Shown here piece after piece: positions 5,201 to 24,608 of a DNA stretch of 24,608 nucleotides. The notes under the pieces were generated by a model. The model had not been told where the DNA came from. It was given only the letters and a program-made list of their open reading frames with translations, and made no database searches. The position numbers and the translations under genes are program-made. Positions within the stretch are counted from its first letter, which is position 1. Each line of letters starts with the position of its first letter. This DNA comes from a virus: the IMG/VR virus record IMGVR_UViG_3300020430_000087, positions 1 through 24,608 of that record. One strand, written 5' to 3'.

Positions 5201-7145
5201 TGGCCGGGAAAGCACCCGAATCACCACCGCCACCACGTCCACCGCCAAGTGCCGTAATGCTTGAAAACGTAGAACTTGCGCCACTGTTTGCGGCAGATGG
5301 ATAAGCCGGAGCAGTGCCGCCAGCGCCAACAGCAACTGTATGGCTTGTACCACCAGTGACACTCAGCGTACCTTCGAGAACACCGCCACCACCACCACCG
5401 CCAGCTTCTGCGCCACCACCGCCGCCAAGGACTAAGTATTGAACATCAATAGATGAAGACCCAGGGAAGGTAATAGTTCCTGTCCCAACAGTTGTCCACT
5501 GATAAACATAATCGCTGCCAACAGTTGTTTGAGCGCCACTGTGAGCAGCAGTCAAAGCACCGTGAGACGATGGGTAGCGAATAATGACGCGGCCACTACC
5601 ACCAGCGCCGCCGTTTTGCCAGTCAGCGTGGGTATAGCCGGCACCGCCACCGCCGCCACCAAGGCCATTAGTGCCTGGATTTGCTGCGCCAGTAGATGAT
5701 CCACCAAGCTTGCCGGCTCCGCCACCTCCAGCACCACCGGCTCCACCAGCGGTGCCCCATGAGCCACCGCCACCTCCGCCACCGTAAGTGACGGAAGAGC
5801 CAGTAATCGTGGATGTTTTACCAGCACCGCCAGCACCTGCGGTAACACCAGAAACGGCGTTGCCACCAGCCGCACCAGCGCCGCCTCCGCCTCCGCCGCC
5901 TGAGTTGTGTGCAGAGTATGGATAAGAGTTGCCGCCTTTATAGCCTTGTCGACTGCCTAATTCGCCAACAAAATTATTAACGGTCCAGTCATTTGAGCCA
6001 GCACTATCTTCCCCAAGATTTGATCCGTTTGAAAAATCGAGGTGGAAGCCGTTAGGTGACGCTGGTACTACTTGAAGGACGGTTCCATTAACTTCAATGG
6101 CGTAGACGGAGCTTGAGGGAGCACCCCCCAAAAACCAACGGGATTGAAATTTAATCTCAGTAAGAGTGTCACCACTATTAAACTGAGTGTTTGCAATTAA
6201 GTCCCACCATTGAGTTGTTCCGTAAACGTTTGGATTGTAATAAGACCCACCGTTTACAGAAACTTCTCTTGCGTCATATTGGTTGTTATTCAAAAGTGCA
6301 TAAACACGCAAGCTTGTAACGTTTTGAATTGCTGTAGTAGGCGTCCAAGTTAGATGTTCTGTTCCGTTAGACGAATTGTTTTCGCAGCGAGTGCTAGTAC
6401 TGCCGTCGAACATATTATCCTTCGGGTAACTGCTTTTGAAGCCGTTAGAAGCAGTAACCTCAGCAAGATAACCGCTGCCAGACCCAGCTGATGTATAACT
6501 GCCAGTGTATTCAATCGGATTCCAAACACCAGTGTCTTCGTCAAATTCACCGAAGTCAGTCGGCGCAAGTGCTTGACCGTCGATGAAGTGGACATCGGCT
6601 AAATAAGCATCAAGGTTTAAGCTGCTAGATGCTGGAGTCCAAGATCCTATATTATGCCCTGCGGTTGAATTAGTTAAACCTTTGCCGTTTGATGCGACAG
6701 TCGGCCCAGTACTGAAACTTGTTTCTTGGACACCATTTACATAGAGTTTAATTCGCGTAGCATCTGTTCCTGCCGTACTATTCAGTGCAAGGACTAAATG
6801 TTGCCAAGCCCCTGGGTCTCTAAAAACCCTTGCTGTTTCAAACACAACAGCGTTACTGTCGCCAAGAGTGTTGTCGTAAAACCTGAGTTTATCGTCGGCA
6901 TTAAATTCAAATGAACCAAAAACAGCCCCACTCGTTACAGCACCAAAAATTTGTTGCCTAGACCCTAAAAAGCTTCTTTTAACCCAGCCGCTCCAAGTCC
7001 ACGTCTTGCGATTGCCTGCAGACGACGGAGTTCTGGAAAGATAGCTAGTTGAGCTTGAATCAAACCGAAGCGAGCGTTGAATCGTGTAACCAGCGTCTTC
7101 TCCCGACGCCAACATGAATGCTTCGCCGGCACCAAGAACAGACAT
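2247..7145 (-). CDS. Giant modular tail fibre/adhesin (LamG, glycine-rich, SPRY, DUF7483-like)
   Basis: A 1632-residue protein, last large gene of the fibre cassette and a probable host-binding protein. Parts in order: a concanavalin/LamG-like domain at about 20-210 (SLRFDSSSTSYLSRTP, WTWSGWVKR, LYVNGVQ, YLADVHFIDGQ); a discoidin-like module at about 220-365 (NMFDGSTSTR to YAIEVNG); a glycine-rich region at about 415-690 with runs of 5-8 Gly and GSGRVIIRYPS, which could form polyglycine-II helices; a SPRY domain at about 715-870 (GKWYWEYTY, GVALDLDNGTITFYKNG); a second discoidin-like module ending KIEVDGLTLLDG; a DUF7483-like stretch (GLVWIKNRSSAYSHTLYDQV); two more modules ending RLDGKVLVD and AVEVDGKILVD; and a C-terminal DUF7483-like domain (PDLVICKKRNG to PFQFARAR). 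ATG 7145 follows the previous stop directly. Domain names are by eye; the overall fibre role is strongly supported. Confidence 0.9.
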   Translation of the reverse strand: MSVLGAGEAFMLASGEDAGYTIQRSLRFDSSSTSYLSRTPSSAGNRKTWTWSGWVKRSFLGSRQQIFGAVTSGAVFGSFEFNADDKLRFYDNTLGDSNAVVFETARVFRDPGAWQHLVLALNSTAGTDATRIKLYVNGVQETSFSTGPTVASNGKGLTNSTAGHNIGSWTPASSSLNLDAYLADVHFIDGQALAPTDFGEFDEDTGVWNPIEYTGSYTSAGSGSGYLAEVTASNGFKSSYPKDNMFDGSTSTRCENNSSNGTEHLTWTPTTAIQNVTSLRVYALLNNNQYDAREVSVNGGSYYNPNVYGTTQWWDLIANTQFNSGDTLTEIKFQSRWFLGGAPSSSVYAIEVNGTVLQVVPASPNGFHLDFSNGSNLGEDSAGSNDWTVNNFVGELGSRQGYKGGNSYPYSAHNSGGGGGGGAGAAGGNAVSGVTAGAGGAGKTSTITGSSVTYGGGGGGGSWGTAGGAGGAGGGGAGKLGGSSTGAANPGTNGLGGGGGGAGYTHADWQNGGAGGSGRVIIRYPSSHGALTAAHSGAQTTVGSDYVYQWTTVGTGTITFPGSSSIDVQYLVLGGGGGAEAGGGGGGGVLEGTLSVTGGTSHTVAVGAGGTAPAYPSAANSGASSTFSSITALGGGRGGGGDSGAFPANGGSGGGGGTQSNNTAGGEGVPGPAYGLDSLLDSPTNYESSSGNNGGNYCTFNPLDINSQASLSNGNLDWSTTNGNGACRGTIAVSSGKWYWEYTYNEKPSGGGTGFGVLEVSESRGFPGSTNFPDGYTYYSEGSSFTKKYGQGSNSNYGADFAVGDVIGVALDLDNGTITFYKNGVSQGQAFSGISGTYAPSISSGTSVGTAKASFNAGQRPFSISSVPTGYKSLCTQNFDDPLIKNSEEHFEPKIYSGSGSDQVIGGPTYSATTDSGFTNKSYIFNGVDTQASYYNGTGTDHTITTTPITINTQLRVYNNFRSDGTYAICLNGTCVNVPGVGTNSTSYRWSTVDLSSFTLPLTTTSLGYSNSQNSGNSIAKIEVDGLTLLDGTGDPYEFSPGLVWIKNRSSAYSHTLYDQVRGVGPNKALATNSTGNEGSLSDGTTFGYLSAFNSNGFTVVKGSDATSYVSGSGQLYSAFGWNAGSLATNSAYNQSQAWSTSLSSNGTLQNAINAFDGSTSTRAQTAGAAVGKTITFAPATGVSFTTSLEVYCDQGNSTPTATWNSNTVNPGGGAWVTVYSGSGTISSSTPLVINTETAGQYATLKGIRLDGKVLVDKGVIPAGSLNSSTYTTGTYTSKWDATGSTGSVDNGLRAFNGNTGNYASNAQSNTTVKWAPDSPITVNSLLRIRASGISGGSGQVSVNGTGITVTSSPVWYTISASSLSEIALTDIGSTHGRLWAVEVDGKILVDSNQTPPNVPTIATTSRGNSTAGISVCTYTGTGSGTANSDSGHSFAHNLSKAPDLVICKKRNGTNGWPVFHSAADAPLVIGTNGQDTSSFLFAKKDPTSTVVFLGNNPEINKTGDTYLAYCFSAVENFSAFGKYTGSGSQKFIHLGFKPAWLMIKRYTDNTVGEWTIYDSASSPNNEIQKKIWANGNSVEEDHPNNSIDFVSNGFVVDPGSNAPNVQYTNNGNVGYLYAAFASAPFQFARAR

Positions 7146-7796
7146 TTATTTGACGTCAGAAAGGGGCTTGCCAATAATGATTTCAGTTGCCGACTTCACT
7201 GAGTACGGCAAAACATCTACAGCGCCACCTGTAGCAGTGGTGAGGCTTGGAGCTTGTCCACTACCGCCAGCAAACTTGTAATTACTCGAGAACGTCAACG
7301 CATTGCCACCACCTGAGGCCTGGGTAATCGTGATCAAGCCGCTCTGCCCTGCCACTGCATTGGTCGGATTGGCCAGAGCCCGTGTAGCGCCAACACTTGA
7401 TGTGCACAACAGCGTGAAATTATTGCCAAGCGACAGATCTACAGCGACGCTAGCTGCGTCAGTCAGAGCAACCGGGGTGCCTCGCTGTCCTTTGGTGAAC
7501 GACTGAGCAACGTTTGTCTTGGCGAACGATTCGCCCTGGACATACGCCGTCGTAGCAATCTGGGTTGTATTGGTACCAGCCGCTGCGGTTGGAGCTGCAG
7601 GGGTCCCTGTGAATGTGGGGCTAGCTAAAGGCGCGCCAGTTACTTCGACAAGACTATTTGATTCCTTAACGTACAGCTTGTCTTGATCTGTCGCGTAGCA
7701 AATCTCGCCTTCTTGAATATCAGCGATGCTGCTATTTAGGTTCGAGTATGTACCCCGAGCAATCCGTACTGGAGTTCTACTTGAAGGTGTCGGCAT
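7146..7796 (-). CDS. Tail fibre protein with Mtd-like N-terminus
   Basis: A 216-residue protein. The N-terminal 50 residues (VRIARGTYSNL, EGEICYATDQDKLYVKE) match the short trimerising N-terminal domain seen in the major tropism determinant and many phage fibres. It is followed by the tail-fibre repeat signature ASPTFTGTPAAPTAAAGTNT with TTAYVQ. The C-terminal half is beta-rich with Gly/Ala/Thr (ALTFSSNYKFAGG). Such proteins form trimeric shafts or connectors between baseplate and adhesin. The gene sits 2 nt from the previous fibre gene and directly abuts the giant adhesin start, so the products probably assemble together. No variable-repeat or reverse-transcriptase partner was found, so tropism switching is not implied. 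Confidence 0.85.
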   Translation of the reverse strand: MPTPSSRTPVRIARGTYSNLNSSIADIQEGEICYATDQDKLYVKESNSLVEVTGAPLASPTFTGTPAAPTAAAGTNTTQIATTAYVQGESFAKTNVAQSFTKGQRGTPVALTDAASVAVDLSLGNNFTLLCTSSVGATRALANPTNAVAGQSGLITITQASGGGNALTFSSNYKFAGGSGQAPSLTTATGGAVDVLPYSVKSATEIIIGKPLSDVK

Positions 7797-14996: not shown

Positions 14997-16178
14997 TCAA
15001 TAGACGAAGGAATAGGCGACGGAGACGAAGTCCTTATTCAGGATTTCGAAACCGGCGAAGAGGCTCCAGATCATGATGATGAAACGACTGAAATCGTCGT
15101 TGTTGTTCAACAGGATCTGAGCGTTGTTGCCACCAATGCCGACACCAACGGCCTGAGGGCCGAAGAACAACATGGGGGCAGCAGTTGTTACTGCGCCTGA
15201 GATGGAGGCATCAGTAATGGTTGCCGTGAAGGACTTCTCGGGCAGGTTAGTCGACTCGAACCAACGAACTCCCTCAAATAGGAACCCCGTGGGCATCACC
15301 GGCTGACCCGCGACGAAACCAGCCTGGCCGTAAGCGGGACCCATGCCATGGAAGAAGTTGGCGTTGGGAGCCTGCTCGGGCTGCAGGGGGTTCATCATAC
15401 CGTTGCCGGCATAACGCGCGATTTCTCTAAAAGCGTCATTCTGCCGAAGGTGCATCATTGCAGTAGGATCTGCGATGCAACGGTAATAACCATCAGCGAA
15501 AGTTGGCACGTTTCGCTTACGCATGTCTTTGACCACCTGAAGCAGGTCGGTCTTGACATCGAACTTGGCAGACTCACCGGATGCGTAGGTCGCAACCGTA
15601 GTGCCAGTGCGGGTTTTGCCGAGAGGGAAGTAATAACCACCCTGTGAATCTGAGGCCTTGCCGTTGGCATCAGCCTTGAACAGTTCGTCGGCAAAAACAC
15701 GATCACGCCAACGACGGTAGTCGTCGAGCAGTGTCAGAGAGCCGATGGACTGGTGGAACACATTAAGGTTCCCGGTGTCCAACAAAAGGCGTTGGGCAGT
15801 AAGCAGAGTCTCGCGTGCAACCTTGAAAGTTGAGGGTGCTGCGGTATCAGAAGGATCCGCAGGTCCTGTATATTCTTTTAGGTTGACTAAGACTTTGTCT
15901 TTGACAATATTGCGGCTAGATGCAGTGCCCAGAGTTTGATCGGCAGTGCGCTCTCGAGAATCCTTAGTGCCAGGATTTCCCCAGAAACGATAACGATCAA
16001 GCTGAACAGTCTGCCCGGGTTGCTTAGCGAAATCGTGCACAACCACGGGCTCTACGGCCATCTCAATGATGTATCCCGGGTGGGGACGGTAGAGCTCAGC
16101 ACCTAGCAGCTTCGGAAAATCATTGTCAATCCACATGGGAAGACGATCCTCAAGCTGTAAGAACGATCGAGCGCGCAT
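14997..16178 (-). CDS. Major capsid protein (N4-gp56-like)
   Basis: A 393-residue protein, the right size for an HK97-fold coat protein of the N4-gp56 type. Features: early GQTVQLDRYRFWG and ERTADQTLGTAS with KEYTGP; a long helix region (ARETLLTAQRLLLDTGN; LLDDYRRWRDRVFADELF); the typical VKDMRKRNVPTFADGYYRC then IADPTAMMHLRQND segment; a GFLFEGVRWFESTNLP strand; and PMLFFGPQAVGVGIGG near the end. These follow the order of N4-gp56-family coat proteins; it is not T4 gp23-like. Start: ATG 16178 gives MRARSFLQLED; an inner ATG (residue 15, MWIDNDFP) with GAGG 11 nt upstream is an alternative. It is transcribed away from the homing-endonuclease gene, with only 47 nt between the start codons. Confidence 0.85.
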   Translation of the reverse strand: MRARSFLQLEDRLPMWIDNDFPKLLGAELYRPHPGYIIEMAVEPVVVHDFAKQPGQTVQLDRYRFWGNPGTKDSRERTADQTLGTASSRNIVKDKVLVNLKEYTGPADPSDTAAPSTFKVARETLLTAQRLLLDTGNLNVFHQSIGSLTLLDDYRRWRDRVFADELFKADANGKASDSQGGYYFPLGKTRTGTTVATYASGESAKFDVKTDLLQVVKDMRKRNVPTFADGYYRCIADPTAMMHLRQNDAFREIARYAGNGMMNPLQPEQAPNANFFHGMGPAYGQAGFVAGQPVMPTGFLFEGVRWFESTNLPEKSFTATITDASISGAVTTAAPMLFFGPQAVGVGIGGNNAQILLNNNDDFSRFIIMIWSLFAGFEILNKDFVSVAYSFVY

Positions 16179-16225
16179 TTCGCGCTCATGAAACTACTAT
16201 AGAAGTAATTCATAGGGCGAAACTT

Positions 16226-16933
16226 TTGGATTCCGCTGACGTTCGCGGATTGCTCGGGTTATTACTCGCAGATGGAAGTCTTGTCCCATATCGCACTGTT
16301 GGCGGGGGTTATATCCAGCTGACATTGACAGCGGGGGCAGCTGAATCTGCGTTTCTCGAAGAAAAGGTGGCTGAATTCCGCCATTTCATCCCGACAAATG
16401 CGAATATTGTTCACTATGAGACTCCGAAGCGGGCAAATGGCAGATCAACCTCTGCGTTGCGCTTCAGAGTGTCGACTGACAAGTTGAGGCCCGTATACAA
16501 CCTCTTATATCCGCATGGTGAGCGTGAAATCACGCAAACATCGCTGGATTTACTAGGTGCCAAAGCTCTTGCTTGGTGTTGGGCCGAAGGATCACGCGCC
16601 ATGAAGGACGGATCCGCACAATTAGCCCGGGTCGGCGCCACGATCCAAGAAGCACGACTGATGTCGACCTGGGTTGAGGTACTTACCGGGGCGATATCCA
16701 CAATCGACGAGAAACGAGTCAAGCCACGCCTGACATTCGACGCTGATCAAGCAGTAAAGGTCCGCAAGGCCCTGGTCGACTACGCACCGAAGTCTCGAGT
16801 TCACCTATTTCAAGAGGAGCAGTGGGATGTCAGCAAAATTCGTGGCGCGCGCACTGAGCTTCACCTTGGGAAAAGGGGTGGTCGCCCTAAAGGGAGCAAG
16901 AAAGCGCCCGTGGCTGGAGATTGTCCGTCCTGA
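16226..16933 (+). CDS. LAGLIDADG homing endonuclease, complete two-motif form
   Basis: A 235-residue protein starting at TTG 16226, with AGGGCG about 6 nt before it. Motif 1 lies at residues 8-18 (GLLGLLLADGS, Asp16 as catalytic acid). Motif 2 lies at about 110-122 (LGAKALAWCWAEGS, Glu121 in place of the usual Asp). The intervening region has the expected beta strands (ALRFRVSTDKLRPVYNLLYP) and a second half follows, so both half-domains are present. The C-terminus carries KRGGRPKGSKK, an AT-hook-like DNA-binding tail. The enzymes of this family cut long asymmetric DNA sites and copy their own gene. It is free-standing, divergent from the capsid gene, and its last 107 bases overlap the next gene. 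Confidence 0.8.
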   Translation: MDSADVRGLLGLLLADGSLVPYRTVGGGYIQLTLTAGAAESAFLEEKVAEFRHFIPTNANIVHYETPKRANGRSTSALRFRVSTDKLRPVYNLLYPHGEREITQTSLDLLGAKALAWCWAEGSRAMKDGSAQLARVGATIQEARLMSTWVEVLTGAISTIDEKRVKPRLTFDADQAVKVRKALVDYAPKSRVHLFQEEQWDVSKIRGARTELHLGKRGGRPKGSKKAPVAGDCPS

Positions 16934-17414
16934 AACCCAGCGGACCTACCTCGATCACCAGTTACGAAGCCTGCGGAAGCTTCATGACGGCCCTATCGAC
17001 GCTGTATGGGACGTCATTCCTACCAATGGCTTCTACGACAAAGAGCGATTACGCCTACATGGTGAGGGTATGTGGCGAGTTCACGAGCTCAGGTGCCCCC
17101 ACGACGAGCCATTGATAACGAGAGAAGCACTCGACGTGTGCGGAATCCAGGGTGTCGCTGCTCTCTGGGTTGATCAAGGGCGGTTCGTCGGTAAATACGG
17201 AAAGATCAGCGGGAGATTCAAAAGCGATGAGCTGGTCACCATTGCTGAATGGTTGACTGACATGGGGTTCGACTCCTCCTGCCATGGGAATGGAGAGCGA
17301 TTCTTCGAGGTGTGCATTAAACGCTCCGTCATCAAGGACATGATCAACGAAATTCGCCCCCATATTCACGTCTCCATGAAGAACAAACTTTGCAAATACC
17401 GATTTAAGATGTGA
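16827..17414 (+). CDS. Second LAGLIDADG-like protein, motif 1 degenerate
   Basis: A 195-residue protein (ATG 16827, with GAGGAG about 8 nt upstream) in a different frame from the gene it overlaps. Residues 101-190 match the second half of a LAGLIDADG domain: ALDVCGIQGVAALWVDQG with Asp116, then GKISGRFKSDELVTIAEWLT and HIHVSMKNKL. Residues 8-18 (RALSFTLGKGV) look like a worn first motif with Lys16 where the acid should be, followed by RPETQRTYLDHQLRSLRKL, which fits the usual segment after motif 1. It may be a nicking or inactive relative, a partner of the first enzyme or a decaying copy. Identification rests on motif order and I am moderately sure. Confidence 0.65.
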   Translation: MSAKFVARALSFTLGKGVVALKGARKRPWLEIVRPETQRTYLDHQLRSLRKLHDGPIDAVWDVIPTNGFYDKERLRLHGEGMWRVHELRCPHDEPLITREALDVCGIQGVAALWVDQGRFVGKYGKISGRFKSDELVTIAEWLTDMGFDSSCHGNGERFFEVCIKRSVIKDMINEIRPHIHVSMKNKLCKYRFKM

Positions 17415-17573
17415 GTGGCCCCGAAGAAGAACTACGTCAGGGGCATATTCCCCAGGAGTCCAAGTTTTTGTAGTTTCCTTGGACTGGAAAGTGATCCGCT
17501 GTGCGTCTGATCAACGTGCAGCGGCGCCTGGCAATGCAATTTTGTATAGCATATTTGAGGCATAGGACATTAT
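17415..17573 (+). other. Short gap with several possible RNA hairpins
   Basis: A 159-base gap before the CP12-like gene, without an open frame. Three stem-loops can be drawn on the plus strand: GCCCC/GGGGC (17418-17422 with 17440-17444); a perfect 8-bp AGTCCAAG/CTTGGACT stem (17457-17464 with 17478-17485) with a 13-base T-rich loop; and a 9-bp stem with two G-U pairs at 17498-17522. The GGGG at 17440-17443 could instead pair with CCCC at 17450-17453. None is followed by a T-run, so they are not standard terminators. They may be a structured leader of the next gene or the scar of the endonuclease insertion. AGGA at 17564-17567 is the ribosome-binding site for the next ATG. Confidence 0.4.
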
Positions 17574-17738
17574 ATGGATCATTCAAACTCGGACGAAAAG
17601 GAATGCACTGGAGCTTGTGAGCGGCACTGCCCGCCTAAAGCTTCAGAACAAACCGAACCTTCTGGTTTGCGACGCAAGTTCCTCGAGTATTGCGACGCCA
17701 ATCCAGATGCCAGCGAATGCCGTATGTATGAGTGCTAA
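17574..17738 (+). CDS. CP12-like mini-protein
   Basis: A 54-residue open frame with AGGA 6 nt before the ATG. Residues 36-54 read FLEYCDANPDASECRMYEC. This closely matches the C-terminal loop of CP12 (Cys, eight residues, Cys-Arg-x-Tyr), the part that binds glyceraldehyde-3-phosphate dehydrogenase in the CP12/GAPDH/PRK complex that switches off the Calvin cycle. The N-terminal part differs from full CP12: it has Cys11, Cys15 and Cys19 but not the AWD-VEEL core, and it is shorter than host CP12 (about 75 residues). An extra Cys ends the protein. Cyanophages are known to carry CP12. Here the gene is coupled to a virion-type gene (TAATG overlap), so a metabolic role is not certain; it could be a small Cys-bonded protein that merely shares the motif. 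Confidence 0.75.
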   Translation: MDHSNSDEKECTGACERHCPPKASEQTEPSGLRRKFLEYCDANPDASECRMYEC

Positions 17739-18529
17739 TGACACTCCAGCAGTCACCCGAAATTCAACGCATCAAAAGTCTTCAAGGTGGCAGCAGCAGC
17801 ACAGCGCCATCATTCATTCGCTCTGAGCACAATCAAAACAGCAGCCTCTCCTCAGCTACTGACCTGGGCACCGTTACCAACCTGACCAGGGTATTAACCG
17901 GGGACATTGGATCTGAAACAGGTCGAAATACCTTGTACTACAAGGTCGAAACAACCGACCCTTCGGATGTCCGCATCTTTAAGAACTTCGTAAATACACG
18001 GACCGACAAAGACATTGCTGTCGGCCTGCTTGATACCAATCGCCACCAGATCATTCTGGATAGCCAGGGCTTCGGCCAATTCAACGAAGTACACAACACT
18101 CAAGAGCTTGAATCTCTTCGAAAGCTTCCTAAGGGCGTTTACTACTTCACAGTTGCCAGCAGCCAGTGGCAATCTGCCCCCTTCAGCATCACCCTGCAGG
18201 TCATCCGGTCCCGTGAACTCTTCGGGAGCGCAGGTGGCACTGCATCACCGACTCTGCGCTTGGCCCTCGTCAAGCTCTTTGGCGCAGCTGGAGGTGATGG
18301 ATCACCCGAAGCAACAATCACTCCCAAAGACAAGATCAAGTTGCTCGGTGGTAGTACGAGTGGAACGGCAGCTCCAACCCTCTCGCTGACAATTATGGAG
18401 GGAACAATCCTTGGAACGATGGTTCCATTTGGACGCCTCAAGCATACATACCGAATCACAGGTACCGCATCCGGTACATCATCCAATAGCGCTACGCTTA
18501 CAGTTACAACTCCGGGTGGCGGTTACTAA
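17738..18529 (+). CDS. Virion protein with a PPC-like beta-sandwich domain
   Basis: A 263-residue protein; ATG 17738 overlaps the previous stop as TAATG (an in-frame GTG two codons upstream is less likely). After a Ser-rich N-terminus, residues about 40-155 follow the pattern of the bacterial pre-peptidase C-terminal (PPC) beta-sandwich: LGTVTNLTRVLTGDIG, NTLYYKVETTDPSDVRIF, DIAVGLLDTNRHQIILDSQ, LPKGVYYFTVAS and FSITLQVIR. The C-terminal 100 residues are a repetitive Gly/Thr/Ala-rich region (FGSAGGTASPTLRLALVKLF, FGAAGGDGSPEA, GGSTSGTAAPTLSLT), with three copies of a 20-25-residue unit. This suits a surface-exposed virion or tail protein. Strand and location separate it from the main fibre cassette. 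Domain name by eye. Confidence 0.8.
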   Translation: MTLQQSPEIQRIKSLQGGSSSTAPSFIRSEHNQNSSLSSATDLGTVTNLTRVLTGDIGSETGRNTLYYKVETTDPSDVRIFKNFVNTRTDKDIAVGLLDTNRHQIILDSQGFGQFNEVHNTQELESLRKLPKGVYYFTVASSQWQSAPFSITLQVIRSRELFGSAGGTASPTLRLALVKLFGAAGGDGSPEATITPKDKIKLLGGSTSGTAAPTLSLTIMEGTILGTMVPFGRLKHTYRITGTASGTSSNSATLTVTTPGGGY

Positions 18530-18589
18530 TCTGGGAGGAATTAGTTACTGCTGGAGTTGCCAAAATAGATATGTAGACACGGCTGCAGC

Positions 18590-19012
18590 ATGGCGTTTTC
18601 GCAGTATTTTGCTACTCAAATCCTGAGCTGGGTAAAGAGCAGCGCATTTCCATCGGCTCCGACGAATGTGTACGTGACGCTTCATACCGGGGACCCTGGT
18701 ACTGCGGGCACCGCTAATGACGTCTCGGCCACAATTACCGGCTCGAGCAACCGAACCCAAGTCGCAAGCTCTGCATTCAGCAACGTTGGTGCAGCTTCAG
18801 GCGGTGGCTTCGAGATCACCAATACAGGTGTTGTCCAGATCACGACCAATGCACAAAACAGCACTGGTCAGAACCTGACTCACTTCGGAATCTGGGACGC
18901 ACAGACCAGCGGCAACTTCCTGGCATCTGGCTCTCTGACTTCAAACGTCGACGTCCAGCAGGGTGACACCGTGCAGTTCAATATCGGCGCAATGGCTATC
19001 AAGGTCGTCTGA
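18590..19012 (+). CDS. Gp80-like phage tail protein
   Basis: A 140-residue protein. The pattern is the one of Gp80-like tail proteins: a short helix at the N-terminus, VYVTLHTGDPGTAGTAND, a S..NRTQV strand, GFEITNTGVVQITTNA, LTHFGIWDAQTSGNFLASGS, and a final GDTVQFNIGAMAIKVV. Length and strand order agree with the family, which is found in tails of many phages, often near the tip or fibres. The ATG at 18590 lacks a clear Shine-Dalgarno; a GGGAGGA lies about 50 nt upstream in the loop of a 6-bp hairpin (18525-18545). Its TGA overlaps the next ATG (TGATG). Confidence 0.85.
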   Translation: MAFSQYFATQILSWVKSSAFPSAPTNVYVTLHTGDPGTAGTANDVSATITGSSNRTQVASSAFSNVGAASGGGFEITNTGVVQITTNAQNSTGQNLTHFGIWDAQTSGNFLASGSLTSNVDVQQGDTVQFNIGAMAIKVV

Positions 19013-19131
19013 TGCTTTACAAGAAATCTCAGATTAAATCCGTATCTCCTCGCAAAAAAACTCGCCAGGGGCAAGGAACAAATTCCAAGCCAAATCACGG
19101 GCGCAAGCAATCACGCGGCCAAGGTCGTTAA
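19012..19131 (+). CDS. 39-residue basic peptide, cyanophage type
   Basis: A very short gene whose ATG at 19012 overlaps the stop of the Gp80-like gene (TGATG). The product is MLYKKSQIKSVSPRKKTR followed by QGQGTNSKPNHGRKQSRGQGR, extremely rich in Lys, Arg, Gln and Gly, with no acidic residue. The paired QGQG and RGQGR motifs are ones I remember from tiny conserved genes of marine cyanophages. Charge and composition suggest binding to nucleic acid or to another virion protein. Function is not known. Translational coupling and the recognisable motif argue that it is real despite its size. Confidence 0.75.
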   Translation: MLYKKSQIKSVSPRKKTRQGQGTNSKPNHGRKQSRGQGR

Positions 19132-19156
19132 TTCCTCCTAGATTGCAGAAAAAGGC

Positions 19157-19477
19157 ATGCTGTCGACTAAATATCGCCTTCGCCTTGAGTTCATCTGTCA
19201 ACGAATTGCATCCGGCCAGGAAGTACAACTGGATGACATGATTTGGGCTAACAAGCTCGCCAAAGCCAACCGAAGCGCCGCAGAGATGCTTCGGAAGGCT
19301 CGGCGTATTGCGGCGAACCCCGACATGGTCGAGGGAGGTCTCGACGACTTCATGAATCAGATGGATCTCGGCGACCCCGATCCGTCCAATCACATCGTGG
19401 ACGGATTTAACTCAGTAGAAGAGATTGCTTCCTGGTTCTCCCAGGAGAAGACTGACGACTGGCGTCAACGGGACTAA
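19157..19477 (+). CDS. Conserved cyanophage hypothetical protein
   Basis: A 106-residue protein beginning MLSTKYRLRLEFICQRIASG, mostly helical (VQLDDMIWANKLAKANRSAA; EMLRKARRIAANPDM), with an acidic C-terminal half (GLDDFMNQMDLGDPDPSNH) and the ending DDWRQRD. The DLGDPDPSNH and DDWRQRD motifs are ones I recognise from marine cyanophage hypothetical proteins, where no function is assigned that I know of. Helix-rich form, small size and closeness to head genes would allow a small-terminase-like or assembly role, but nothing shows it. An in-frame stop 15 nt upstream limits the start to ATG 19157. Its stop codon overlaps the convergent endolysin stop by 4 nt. Confidence 0.8.
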   Translation: MLSTKYRLRLEFICQRIASGQEVQLDDMIWANKLAKANRSAAEMLRKARRIAANPDMVEGGLDDFMNQMDLGDPDPSNHIVDGFNSVEEIASWFSQEKTDDWRQRD

Positions 19478-19484
19478 TAGTCCC
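19470..19484. repeat. Palindrome holding both convergent stop codons
   Basis: GGGACTAATAGTCCC is a perfect 6-bp inverted repeat with a 3-base loop. The plus-strand TAA (19475-19477) and the minus-strand TAG (19474-19476) both lie inside it. It can form a hairpin in transcripts from either side and may slow or end convergent transcription, although no T-run follows in either direction. Confidence 0.6.
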
Positions 19485-20649
19485 ACTGGGCAGCAGGGCG
19501 AACTTCAGGGCGTGACGTGAAGTGGCCCTGCTGCCTGGTGTCGATATGGATAAAGCCTCTCTTGCGGCCATCGCCAAAACCACCGCACCACCGGGGCTTC
19601 AGCCATTTGTAGAACTTGTCGACCTTGCCATTGGTTGGGTAGACGTCCAGCGCCATCCCTTTGGCGTGCAGTGAGCCTTTGACTCCACCCACCTGCGTAT
19701 TGATTGGCTCTGGCCTGTAGCCACTTGCTACGCCAATGCTGTCCCCCCAGGCAATTCGGATTCGATCGAATTCTGCGCAGAGCTTGATTAGCTCACTTTC
19801 TTCTTTGCTCCCGGGGCGAGGCTTACGGCGTGAGTCGTACTGAAGGACTTCGCCAACAGTGATGTACATCCCGACGTATGAGCTGAAGTCATTCCAGTCG
19901 ACTCCTGATGAGCTCTCTACAGCTCTCAGAGACTCGTTGACGCTCTTGGGTAGCCAATGAGGCAAGTAGATCGCCCATCGCTCTCCAGAGCCACTGAGGG
20001 TGACCCATGCGTGGCTGCTGCATGGGATCTCTTCTAGGCGGGCAACTTCGATCACATCTCCGTGATCCATGCCCTGCTTTCCGTCATTTGAAAGGTAAAT
20101 ACTTTCAATTGCAGCCTTCTTCAGCAAGGTGCCCTGTGCGGCTACGAATTCAATAGCGTCGTTGTGCTCCATGTCCCATACATCAGCTTCATGGCGACGA
20201 CGCCTTACAAGGCCAAGGAGTTTTTGATTCCCAGCACAGACATGCTTATTTAGGGCCTTGCGCATGTCCCGATAAATGCCGGGGTCCATAGCGCCATCTT
20301 TCAGGACTCTGCTGACATCTTCAAAGCCCAACTCATCGTAGAAGTTTGCTCCCACGCTCCAAGCAAAACTCATGAGCACTGCCTGTCTCGCTGCGCTAAG
20401 TGTTTCCCAGCCAGGCAGAATCTCAAGCTCAGGGAGATGCTCCGTCTTCAGGCATTCACGCAAGTACCCCTTGCAAACGCCATCCGTGCAGACATCTCCG
20501 AGTCGTACCGGGATACCACTCGGATATCTCGTGATTCCAGAGCAAATCGTTGGGACTCCGGTCGGGTCTAAGTACGCCTTGTGCTCTTCACCCTCGAAGC
20601 TTTCAATCAGCTCACACGCCAGGTCGAGAGCCGTCTGATTGCTCACCAT
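19474..20649 (-). CDS. Two-domain endolysin: GH24 lysozyme plus M15-type peptidase
   Basis: Cell-wall lysis enzyme of 391 residues from ATG 20649 (AGGAG just upstream; a TTG four codons earlier is also open). Numbered from that ATG, residues about 5-150 are a phage lysozyme domain: FEGEEHKAYLDPTGVPT holds the catalytic triad Glu19, Asp28, Thr34 with the T4-lysozyme spacing E-x8-D-x5-T, then ICSGIT and RQAVLMSFAWSVGANF. A middle segment (about 190-250, KQGMDHGDVIEV) may be an SH3-like wall-binding part. The C-terminus is a peptidase M15-type domain: VASGYRPEPINTQVGG, SLHAKGMALDVYP and GFIHIDTR supply the His-x6-Asp and His zinc ligands. It would therefore cut both glycan and peptide bonds. It lies within the head module, not in a separate lysis cassette. 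Confidence 0.92.
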   Translation of the reverse strand: MVSNQTALDLACELIESFEGEEHKAYLDPTGVPTICSGITRYPSGIPVRLGDVCTDGVCKGYLRECLKTEHLPELEILPGWETLSAARQAVLMSFAWSVGANFYDELGFEDVSRVLKDGAMDPGIYRDMRKALNKHVCAGNQKLLGLVRRRRHEADVWDMEHNDAIEFVAAQGTLLKKAAIESIYLSNDGKQGMDHGDVIEVARLEEIPCSSHAWVTLSGSGERWAIYLPHWLPKSVNESLRAVESSSGVDWNDFSSYVGMYITVGEVLQYDSRRKPRPGSKEESELIKLCAEFDRIRIAWGDSIGVASGYRPEPINTQVGGVKGSLHAKGMALDVYPTNGKVDKFYKWLKPRWCGGFGDGRKRGFIHIDTRQQGHFTSRPEVRPAAQWDY

Positions 20650-20884
20650 AAACTCCTGCAAACCTTATGGACTGCTGCGCTTCTGGCTCCTTTCCGCTGA
20701 GCATTTGCATTGCATAGTGCTCTGCATCTTTGTCGCCCATGCCTTTGGATCTCAAAAGCGCAAACAATTCCATAAACCTATCCAAATCACCAGTATTTGT
20801 GTCCTCTTCAAAGAGACCTGAAAACGCAGATTTGACGTCTTTACCGCCAGCTAAGCGCATCAGATCGAGTGATTCGATACACAA
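20612..20884 (-). CDS. Small helical hypothetical protein
   Basis: A 90-residue protein. The frame opens with TTG 20884; ATG at residue 9 (20860) is an equally possible start, and neither has a Shine-Dalgarno. The core is helical: DLDRFMELFALLRSKGMGDK then DAEHYAMQMLSG. It overlaps the endolysin gene by 38 nt, so the two are read in different frames over the junction. The helix pattern looks conserved rather than random, and it fills the gap exactly, which supports it as a real gene. Function unknown; perhaps a head-assembly helper like its neighbour. Confidence 0.7.
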   Translation of the reverse strand: MCIESLDLMRLAGGKDVKSAFSGLFEEDTNTGDLDRFMELFALLRSKGMGDKDAEHYAMQMLSGKEPEAQQSIRFAGVYGEQSDGSRPGV

Positions 20885-21227: not shown

Positions 21228-21250
21228 AAAAAGGCCCCTAAAAAGGGGCC
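21228..21250 (-). terminator. Intrinsic terminator after the scaffold gene
   Basis: Read leftward: GGCCCCT pairs perfectly with AGGGGCC (7 bp, 21233-21239 with 21244-21250, 4-base loop), followed by five T (21228-21232). It begins 7 bases past the scaffold stop and ends 2 bases before the next ATG. The AGGGG of its 3' arm is also the only visible Shine-Dalgarno of that next gene, so folding would both end transcription and hide the ribosome-binding site. Confidence 0.9.
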
Positions 21251-21257
21251 ACGGAAA

Positions 21258-22301
21258 TCAACCTTCGGAAACCAGAACCTTGCTACGCAGGGCATCAGGG
21301 CCTGCTTGGCTCAGGATCTGCCAAGCGGCAGAAGGGTTGCGCTCGCTGATCTGTGCAAAGTTGGCCCAGAAATCATCAGAGCCAGCAGAGGACTGAGTGC
21401 CCGGGGTGGGGATGTCCATCTGAGGACGCTCGTACTGAGGAGCGGCCTGCTGTTGAGGCTGGAAGCGAGTGTCGTTAGCTGCAACTTCGGCAGCCAGGCG
21501 ATCCTCTGCAGTCTCTACGGGGTAGGGACCTTCAGGACCAAAGAAGTCGTTGACGTACTCAGAGAGCAGGTCGGGGTTGGTCATCATCGTGTGATAAGCC
21601 GCATTGTCTTCTGCAGCTGCGGTGATGACACCCTTGGCTGCCTCCATGTTGGAGACAAGCTCTTCGACCTTGGCGATTTGCTCAGCGGTCTGCTCAGCTT
21701 GCTGGATCAACGCATCCTCGACCGTGCAGGCGTACCTGTTAAGTAGAGCTGGCGCCTCGGCTCCGAAGTGGTTCAGAACTTCAAGACTTTCTGCGCTGAC
21801 GTTTGCGAGATACTCGTCGCTCGCGAGATTGCTTTGTTGACTCTCGACGCTGCTCGAGATCGGAGCCTGTGTCTGTGTCGCCTGGGAATAGGCCGATGTT
21901 TGTTGGGGCAGAAAGGTCTGGAGCCCCGAAGTTGAAGGCGCGCTGCTGTAGCTCGTTTGAGAGGGGGAGGCTACCGGCTGCTGCTGATACTGCGTTGGTG
22001 CTGCCGGAGCCTGTTGGGTCGTCCCGTAGGAGGGCACCTGGGCTTGGGAGCTCTGCTGCGCGCTCAGGCTGGCGGACAGACGGTTGAATGCCTCCTGCCA
22101 TGGGTTGATCTGGGGTTCCGCCTGCGGTTGGTAAGCCTGCGGAGCCTGTTCCACCGGTTGTTGCACCGAAGGAGTCGGGCTCGAAACTTGGGCGGTCTGG
22201 GCCGGTGCTGATTGGTAAGCCTGCGTCGGCGCGGGCGCGCTCGATGGAATTGAGGGCTGCGGGGTCACCGCTGCCTGTGGAGTCTGAATACTGTCCTGCA
22301 T
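21258..22301 (-). CDS. Probable capsid scaffolding protein
   Basis: A 347-residue protein between portal and capsid genes, the usual place of a scaffold. Residues 1-150 are disordered, rich in Pro, Gln, Ser, Ala and Thr (TPSVQQPVEQAPQAYQPQAE). Residues about 155-260 are helical and acidic (ANVSAESLEVLNHFGAEAPA; EQIAKVEELVSNMEAAKG; AYHTMMTNPDLLSEYVNDFF). The C-terminus has FWANFAQISERNPSAAWQIL and ends LRSKVLVSEG. A low-complexity N-terminus plus an acidic coiled-coil body resembles phage scaffolds. ATG 22301 lies inside the portal gene, in the +1 frame, with only a weak ribosome-binding site, and 521 bases are double-coded. A terminator follows. Function inferred from place and composition. 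Confidence 0.8.
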   Translation of the reverse strand: MQDSIQTPQAAVTPQPSIPSSAPAPTQAYQSAPAQTAQVSSPTPSVQQPVEQAPQAYQPQAEPQINPWQEAFNRLSASLSAQQSSQAQVPSYGTTQQAPAAPTQYQQQPVASPSQTSYSSAPSTSGLQTFLPQQTSAYSQATQTQAPISSSVESQQSNLASDEYLANVSAESLEVLNHFGAEAPALLNRYACTVEDALIQQAEQTAEQIAKVEELVSNMEAAKGVITAAAEDNAAYHTMMTNPDLLSEYVNDFFGPEGPYPVETAEDRLAAEVAANDTRFQPQQQAAPQYERPQMDIPTPGTQSSAGSDDFWANFAQISERNPSAAWQILSQAGPDALRSKVLVSEG

Positions 22302-24045: not shown

Positions 24046-24608
24046 TTAATCCCATGAAATTTGTGCGCCCCCACGGCGCATCAATCCCTGAACAACAATA
24101 TTCAGCGAATCGGCACAATCATCGTGAGGTGAATGCCCGAAGTTGACCACTTCATCAATCATGCAACGGAAGTCGCGGTACTTGTTGAAGATGATCTTCT
24201 TGCCTTGGAACAATCCGATAATTCCACGAAGTCGAGCAAGCTTGTCTCCGCGAAATCCTTTAACTGGACTGATACTTAGATTGTAGAGCTGCCACTCATT
24301 GAACAGAACTCGCTTCAAATCACCCTCGAAGCTCTTCTGATACGCCACAACTTCTGGCCAAATCACGACAGGTGAATCCGTCATGAAGTACTGGCCTTCG
24401 TCATTTACAGCGAGCAAGTTCCATTCGTGGAGCAGCTCGCACAAGGCCTCGACCTTCTCGATGTTGCCCATCGAGCGCATGCGCCTGTAGTCAATGATGT
24501 AGACCTTGTCGCCTACACGGCCCGCAAGCGTAAACACCGTCCAGTCGTTCCGCTCGCTCATGCCAGCAGACAAGTCGATGCCAACGCCGATCATGTCGTA
24601 GGTGTCAG
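24046..24608 (-). CDS. terL: Terminase large subunit, C-terminal nuclease domain (partial)
   Basis: The frame runs in from the right edge (the codons before the internal Met read DTYD) and stops at TAA 24046-24048, giving about 187 visible residues. The start is DTYDMIGVGIDLSAG, the first acidic strand of the RNase H-like nuclease, with SERNDWTVFTLAGR. Then follow VYIIDYRRMR, FRGDKLARLRGIIGLFQGKK, IIFNKYRDFRCMIDEV and the closing HSPHDDCADSLN acidic cluster, all in the usual order. This domain cuts the concatemer during headful or site-specific packaging. The ATPase part lies outside the window. It is followed directly by portal, the standard gene order. Confidence 0.9.
   Translation of the reverse strand, partial: DTYDMIGVGIDLSAGMSERNDWTVFTLAGRVGDKVYIIDYRRMRSMGNIEKVEALCELLHEWNLLAVNDEGQYFMTDSPVVIWPEVVAYQKSFEGDLKRVLFNEWQLYNLSISPVKGFRGDKLARLRGIIGLFQGKKIIFNKYRDFRCMIDEVVNFGHSPHDDCADSLNIVVQGLMRRGGAQISWD

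Follow-up and report, generated by a model that had tools for sequence, protein, structure and literature searches.

A long same-strand overlap between a probable portal gene and a scaffold-like gene in cyanophage-like viruses

Overview of the overlapping gene pair

The window analysed here, a 24,608-nt stretch of viral DNA (positions 1 to 24,608 of IMG/VR record IMGVR_UViG_3300020430_000087), contains a portal-like gene whose last 173 codons and stop share their DNA with the first half of a scaffold-like gene read in the +1 frame of the same strand (Table 1). The sequence-only reading had placed this overlap at 521 nt, and its coordinates proved exact; its description of a long, same-strand, dual-coding stretch was borne out by relatives and by frame-specific tests of selection. 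Taken as a whole, the data are very probably best explained by a true same-strand +1 gene pair, with portal and scaffold as the inferred roles. Ribosomes that begin at the portal ATG would read 751 codons to position 21781, and others, initiating within the portal gene at 22301, would make the 347-residue scaffold-like protein. Sequence comparison shows that throughout the lineage purifying selection has preserved both frames, both ends of the overlap and the internal start.

Table 1. Features of the portal-like and scaffold-like genes and their surroundings (window coordinates)
Feature	Position	Strand	Remarks
Large terminase, C-terminal part, at window edge	24046..24606	-	phrog_38 E 4e-21, PF17289; upstream neighbour
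Portal-like ORF, 751 aa	21781..24036	-	core = residues 1-578, tail = residues 579-751
Scaffold start codon ATG	22299..22301	-	within portal codons Tyr-Ala; ATGCAGGA context
Scaffold-like ORF, 347 aa	21258..22301	-	+1 frame of portal; N-terminal 173 aa over portal tail
Dual-coding overlap, 521 nt	21781..22301	-	ORF coordinates and comparison with relatives
Scaffold motif NPWQEAFNRLSASL, conserved	22065..22106	-	residues 66-79, predicted helix
Portal tail motif MAGGI	22087-22101	-	same DNA as scaffold motif NPWQEAFNRLSASL
Basic end of portal tail, conserved, RRVSRKRQRRKS	21784..21819	-	
Scaffold C-terminal helical segment, conserved	21279..21377	-	outside overlap
Terminator-like hairpin GGCCCC-TTTTTA-GGGGCC then T5	21233..21250	-	7 nt past scaffold stop; z -3.27

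The hairpin beyond the scaffold-like gene also lies a few bases ahead of the ATG of the next ORF (21225). About 5 kb with lysis genes and plus-strand genes (window 14997-20884) separates the scaffold-like gene from an ORF resembling a major capsid protein (MCP) gene, and a gene located among those for the head (19474-20661, minus strand) encodes an endolysin that combines two catalytic domains, a Phage_lysozyme and a Peptidase_M15_3.

Relatives and persistence of the overlap

The source virus is related to Synechococcus phage S-EIV1 (portal 45% identical), the only annotated phage with a protein related to the portal-like ORF, and IMG/VR holds hundreds of contigs with relatives. The lineage consists of abundant cyanobacteria-infecting phages or cyanophage-like viruses. 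We compared 207 loci among the matches listed in which both ORFs were complete; these are mutually related rather than independent, and they span three clades: that of the window, a middle one (portal identity about 50%) and that of S-EIV1 (about 45%). An overlap of 443-635 nt was kept in 206 of the 207 loci listed, with none of the earlier conserved portal stops that the sequence-only reading had thought of as a way in which its overlap could fail, and the matches listed included no relative that lacks the overlap. In the exception, L077, a frame-shifting deletion (near 5738), close to where the overlap begins, breaks the join of both frames and leaves the two downstream sequences otherwise intact; it may be an assembly error or a mutant. 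Sequencing error as the cause of the overlap was ruled out, because independent contigs, both near-identical and divergent, carry it, as does the isolate S-EIV1. Some relatives (L082-L091) were located in GTDB genome bins labelled Euryarchaeota, Rhodobacteraceae, Crocinitomicaceae and others; those within bacterial or archaeal bins are probably phage contigs that contaminate metagenome-assembled genomes through co-binning.

Chance and codon composition

Permuting synonymous codons while preserving the portal protein gave an open +1 frame in 656 of 5000 trials. In the converse test, which preserved the scaffold protein, the portal frame was open in only 11 of 5000, or in 8 of 5000 with the codon usage of the portal core, and about 5.8 portal-frame stops were expected in the window where none was seen. 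With portal-core codon usage, roughly 4-8 portal-frame stops were expected, and there were none in the 206 loci listed. The N-terminal half of the scaffold-like protein was indeed rich in Pro, Gln, Ser and Ala (these four make up a mean of 64% of its residues in the window clade), as had been read from the sequence. The further suggestion that codon composition explains the openness of the shifted frame held in part: judging from the 656 and 11 of 5000 open trials, composition helps by lowering the number of stops but fails to explain the open frames by itself. Openness of a frame within one genome is weak evidence and comparison across relatives is strong evidence; across the relatives, sequence comparison excludes chance.

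Selection on the two reading frames

Single-coded DNA on both sides of the overlap behaved in the usual manner, with about three times as much change at third as at first codon positions. For 31 independent pairs of the window clade, substitution rates by codon position were 0.100/0.057/0.309 in the portal core (portal positions) and 0.100/0.053/0.314 in the scaffold-only DNA (scaffold positions), compared with 0.140/0.066/0.124 in the overlap by portal positions, so that portal third-position divergence fell from 0.31 in the core to 0.12. The S-EIV1 clade gave 0.060/0.023/0.214 in the core and 0.117/0.047/0.073 in the overlap, again by portal positions.

We then obtained class-specific rates by sorting substitutions according to whether they were synonymous in each of the two frames. 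For the overlap in the window clade, dNN/dSN for the portal was 0.445 (0.378-0.511) and dNS/dSS was 0.267, while for the scaffold dNN/dNS was 0.316 (0.257-0.370) and dSN/dSS was 0.190. In this clade the bootstrap intervals of portal dNN/dSN and scaffold dNN/dNS lay below 1 in every quarter of the overlap; the two ratios that depend on the few doubly synonymous sites lack resolution in the final quarter. Corresponding values in the S-EIV1 clade were 0.663 and 0.398 for the portal and 0.365 and 0.219 for the scaffold. As controls, the scaffold frame read in the portal core gave 0.95/0.80 in the window clade and 0.78/0.79 in the S-EIV1 clade, and the portal frame read in the scaffold-only region gave 1.76/1.34 and 1.65/1.09. 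These sequence comparisons indicate that purifying selection is acting on both frames in the overlap and that the unused frames outside it show no constraint; it follows that each of the two readings of the shared stretch is functional. The comparison of codon-position rates in relatives that the sequence-only reading had proposed thus found constraint in both frames throughout the overlap. Codon usage was also compared as a guide to which frame is the older: the portal frame was the closer one in the S-EIV1 clade and the middle clade, and the window clade showed no clear difference between the portal and scaffold frames.

The sequence-only reading had left undecided whether the portal extension is a by-product or a real tail. 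If only the scaffold were functional in the overlap, the portal tail would be a tolerated product of read-through, and the compositional bias that lowers the number of stops, together with the lesser constraint on the portal frame of the two in the S-EIV1 clade, would fit such a tail. However, portal dNN/dSN was below 1 in all quarters as opposed to 1.1-1.8 in the scaffold-only region, the expected stops are absent from the loci listed, and features of the tail such as its RRV/GRV basic end are common to the clades. Because of the purifying selection on the portal frame, the persistence of the overlap and the Shine-Dalgarno sequence embedded in frozen portal codons (see below), we consider a by-product highly improbable, and of the two possibilities it is the real tail that stood.

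The internal start

The start codon of the inner gene was conserved in all clades. In the window and S-EIV1 clades the internal ATG falls at the same portal Tyr-Ala codons, and nearly all loci of these clades keep the start context, ATGCAGGA. The middle clade, together with L049, L053 and L084, has a GTG start one codon downstream; a move from ATG to GTG is also listed for L086-L089 and L173-L227, apparently as more than one event. The start is preceded in the middle and S-EIV1 clades by a Shine-Dalgarno sequence, AAGGAG, formed by the portal codons AAG (Lys) and GAG (Glu). Synonymous variation at these two codons was 0% of 80 and 0-2% of 44 sequences, compared with means of 38% and 23% at codons slightly upstream. 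No conserved Shine-Dalgarno sequence was present ahead of the ATG in the window clade, where constraint was confined to the surroundings of the start codon itself, and initiation there may therefore not need Shine-Dalgarno pairing. RNA structure at the internal start was nothing special.

A same-strand +1 arrangement could also arise if programmed frameshifting from the portal gene made a portal-scaffold fusion and no separate protein, which would place the scaffold on the portal. Against such a fusion, most loci have a stop in the second frame two codons ahead of the start (the open stretch begins at -2), the start codon is kept, as is the Shine-Dalgarno sequence in two clades, and we noticed no slippery site where the two frames meet. 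We therefore give frameshifting very little credence.

Annotation of S-EIV1

The S-EIV1 genome (KJ410740.1, our locus L081) contains the same gene pair with an overlap of 554 nt. Its portal was annotated in full (AHV82224.1), and the second protein, AHV82225.1, was annotated only from position 7306 of the locus, past the portal stop. The conserved ORF occupies 6730-7707 of the locus (59287-60264 of KJ410740.1) and begins within the portal gene, 576 nt ahead of the annotated start. The second gene as deposited is 402 nt long and encodes 133 residues, compared with 978 nt and 325 residues for the conserved ORF, and by the sequence comparison the GenBank start omits 192 residues of the second protein. 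Were the deposited start correct, the portal tail alone would be functional in the overlap and the second protein would begin past the portal stop; this is consistent with the GenBank annotation itself and with the 0.4-13% of portal-preserving permutations that leave the +1 frame open. It is contradicted by the constraint on the scaffold frame throughout the overlap, by the conserved internal start with its embedded Shine-Dalgarno sequence, and by the conserved motifs NPWQEAF and YQAAPSVSG of the scaffold-like protein, and we regard a late start as barely credible.

The portal-like protein

The upstream protein is probably a portal. Its gene lies directly downstream of the ORF for the C-terminal part of the terminase, and the ORF belongs to a head-and-packaging PHROG, matching phrog_20475 ('virion structural protein') with an E-value of 4.5e-182 over residues 4-673, well into the overlap. 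Relatives were weakly similar to phrog_64 ('portal protein'; E 0.0055), a family distinct from those of the T7 and T4 portals, and hhalign comparisons of these portals with those of T7, P-SSP7 and T4 revealed no link. The top Foldseek matches were mostly phage portals, with a best E-value of 2.2e-3 from a poor query model (pLDDT 42.5). The AlphaFold models were built from 10-13 sequences and are too weak for the portal tail to be read. The basic end that had been noted on this tail was confirmed as a conserved feature: in each of the three clades, the final 25 residues have a mean net charge of +6 to +7. The charge of the whole tail is near zero in the window clade.

The scaffold-like protein

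Structure prediction gave the downstream protein a disordered N-terminal half, a long helix at residues 183-241 and C-terminal helices at 308-341, and both its parts were acidic (net negative in all clades). Its gene stands between the portal gene and the MCP-like ORF at 14997-16178 (phrog_1357), some 5 kb further on. Searches for a scaffold family in PHROGs, Pfam and the PDB gave no match, Foldseek returned nothing usable, and hhalign found no link to T7 gp9. By its position and predicted helices, we infer that the protein is scaffold-like. Dual coding could be real and the second protein something else, for example an internal head protein, as the missing family match and the distance from the major head protein gene would allow. 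Its place next to the portal gene, as in T7 and P-SSP7, and its acidic, helical make-up with C-terminal helices argue for a scaffold, and we think the non-scaffold role unlikely.

Known overlaps and implications

Overlapping genes are of a known kind in phages. In lambda, the lysis gene Rz1 is nested in another frame of Rz, and Nu3 shares its DNA with C in the same frame. Gene callers are designed to avoid long overlaps. In T7 (gp8/gp9) and P-SSP7 the scaffold gene directly follows the portal gene, as here, but the two genes do not overlap in T7 and overlap by 1 nt in P-SSP7, and no sequence link to either was detectable. Apart from overlaps of 1 and 4 nt, +1 is the commonest type of same-strand overlap, and among 12,609 virus genomes the median length of +1 overlaps was 14 nt (IQR 8-26; PMC8903798). 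In a survey of 338 prokaryotic genomes, genuine co-directional overlaps reached 56 bp at most and none exceeded 60 bp; long same-strand overlaps in prokaryotes are usually annotation errors (PMC2478687). No description of a portal-scaffold frame overlap was found in the open-access literature searched. What is exceptional here is the length of the overlap and the pair of genes involved.

Portal C-termini face the head interior, and the flexible C-terminal tail of this portal would point into the prohead. Since the tails end in basic residues and the scaffolds are acidic, we propose binding between tail and scaffold inside the prohead: the basic end would meet the acidic scaffold, recruit it at the portal vertex and help to seed assembly. 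DNA binding by the tail would be an alternative to scaffold binding. Internal initiation would allow many scaffold copies to be made per portal. More tentatively, and with some doubt on our part, the lineage may encode two interacting head-assembly parts, a basic-ended portal tail and the acidic N-terminal half of the matching scaffold, in one stretch of DNA, such that their interface and their expression ratio evolve as a unit.

At about 500 nt and well replicated among relatives, this overlap is an exception to the rule that long same-strand overlaps are usually annotation errors. It leads to a corrected annotation for S-EIV1 and for hundreds of metagenomic relatives, in which the portal gains a tail of about 150-210 residues with a putative role. 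At 79 kb, the S-EIV1 genome would hardly need compression, and the proteins joined by the overlap would need to come together in head assembly. The one isolate, S-EIV1, allows a test of why such overlaps persist.
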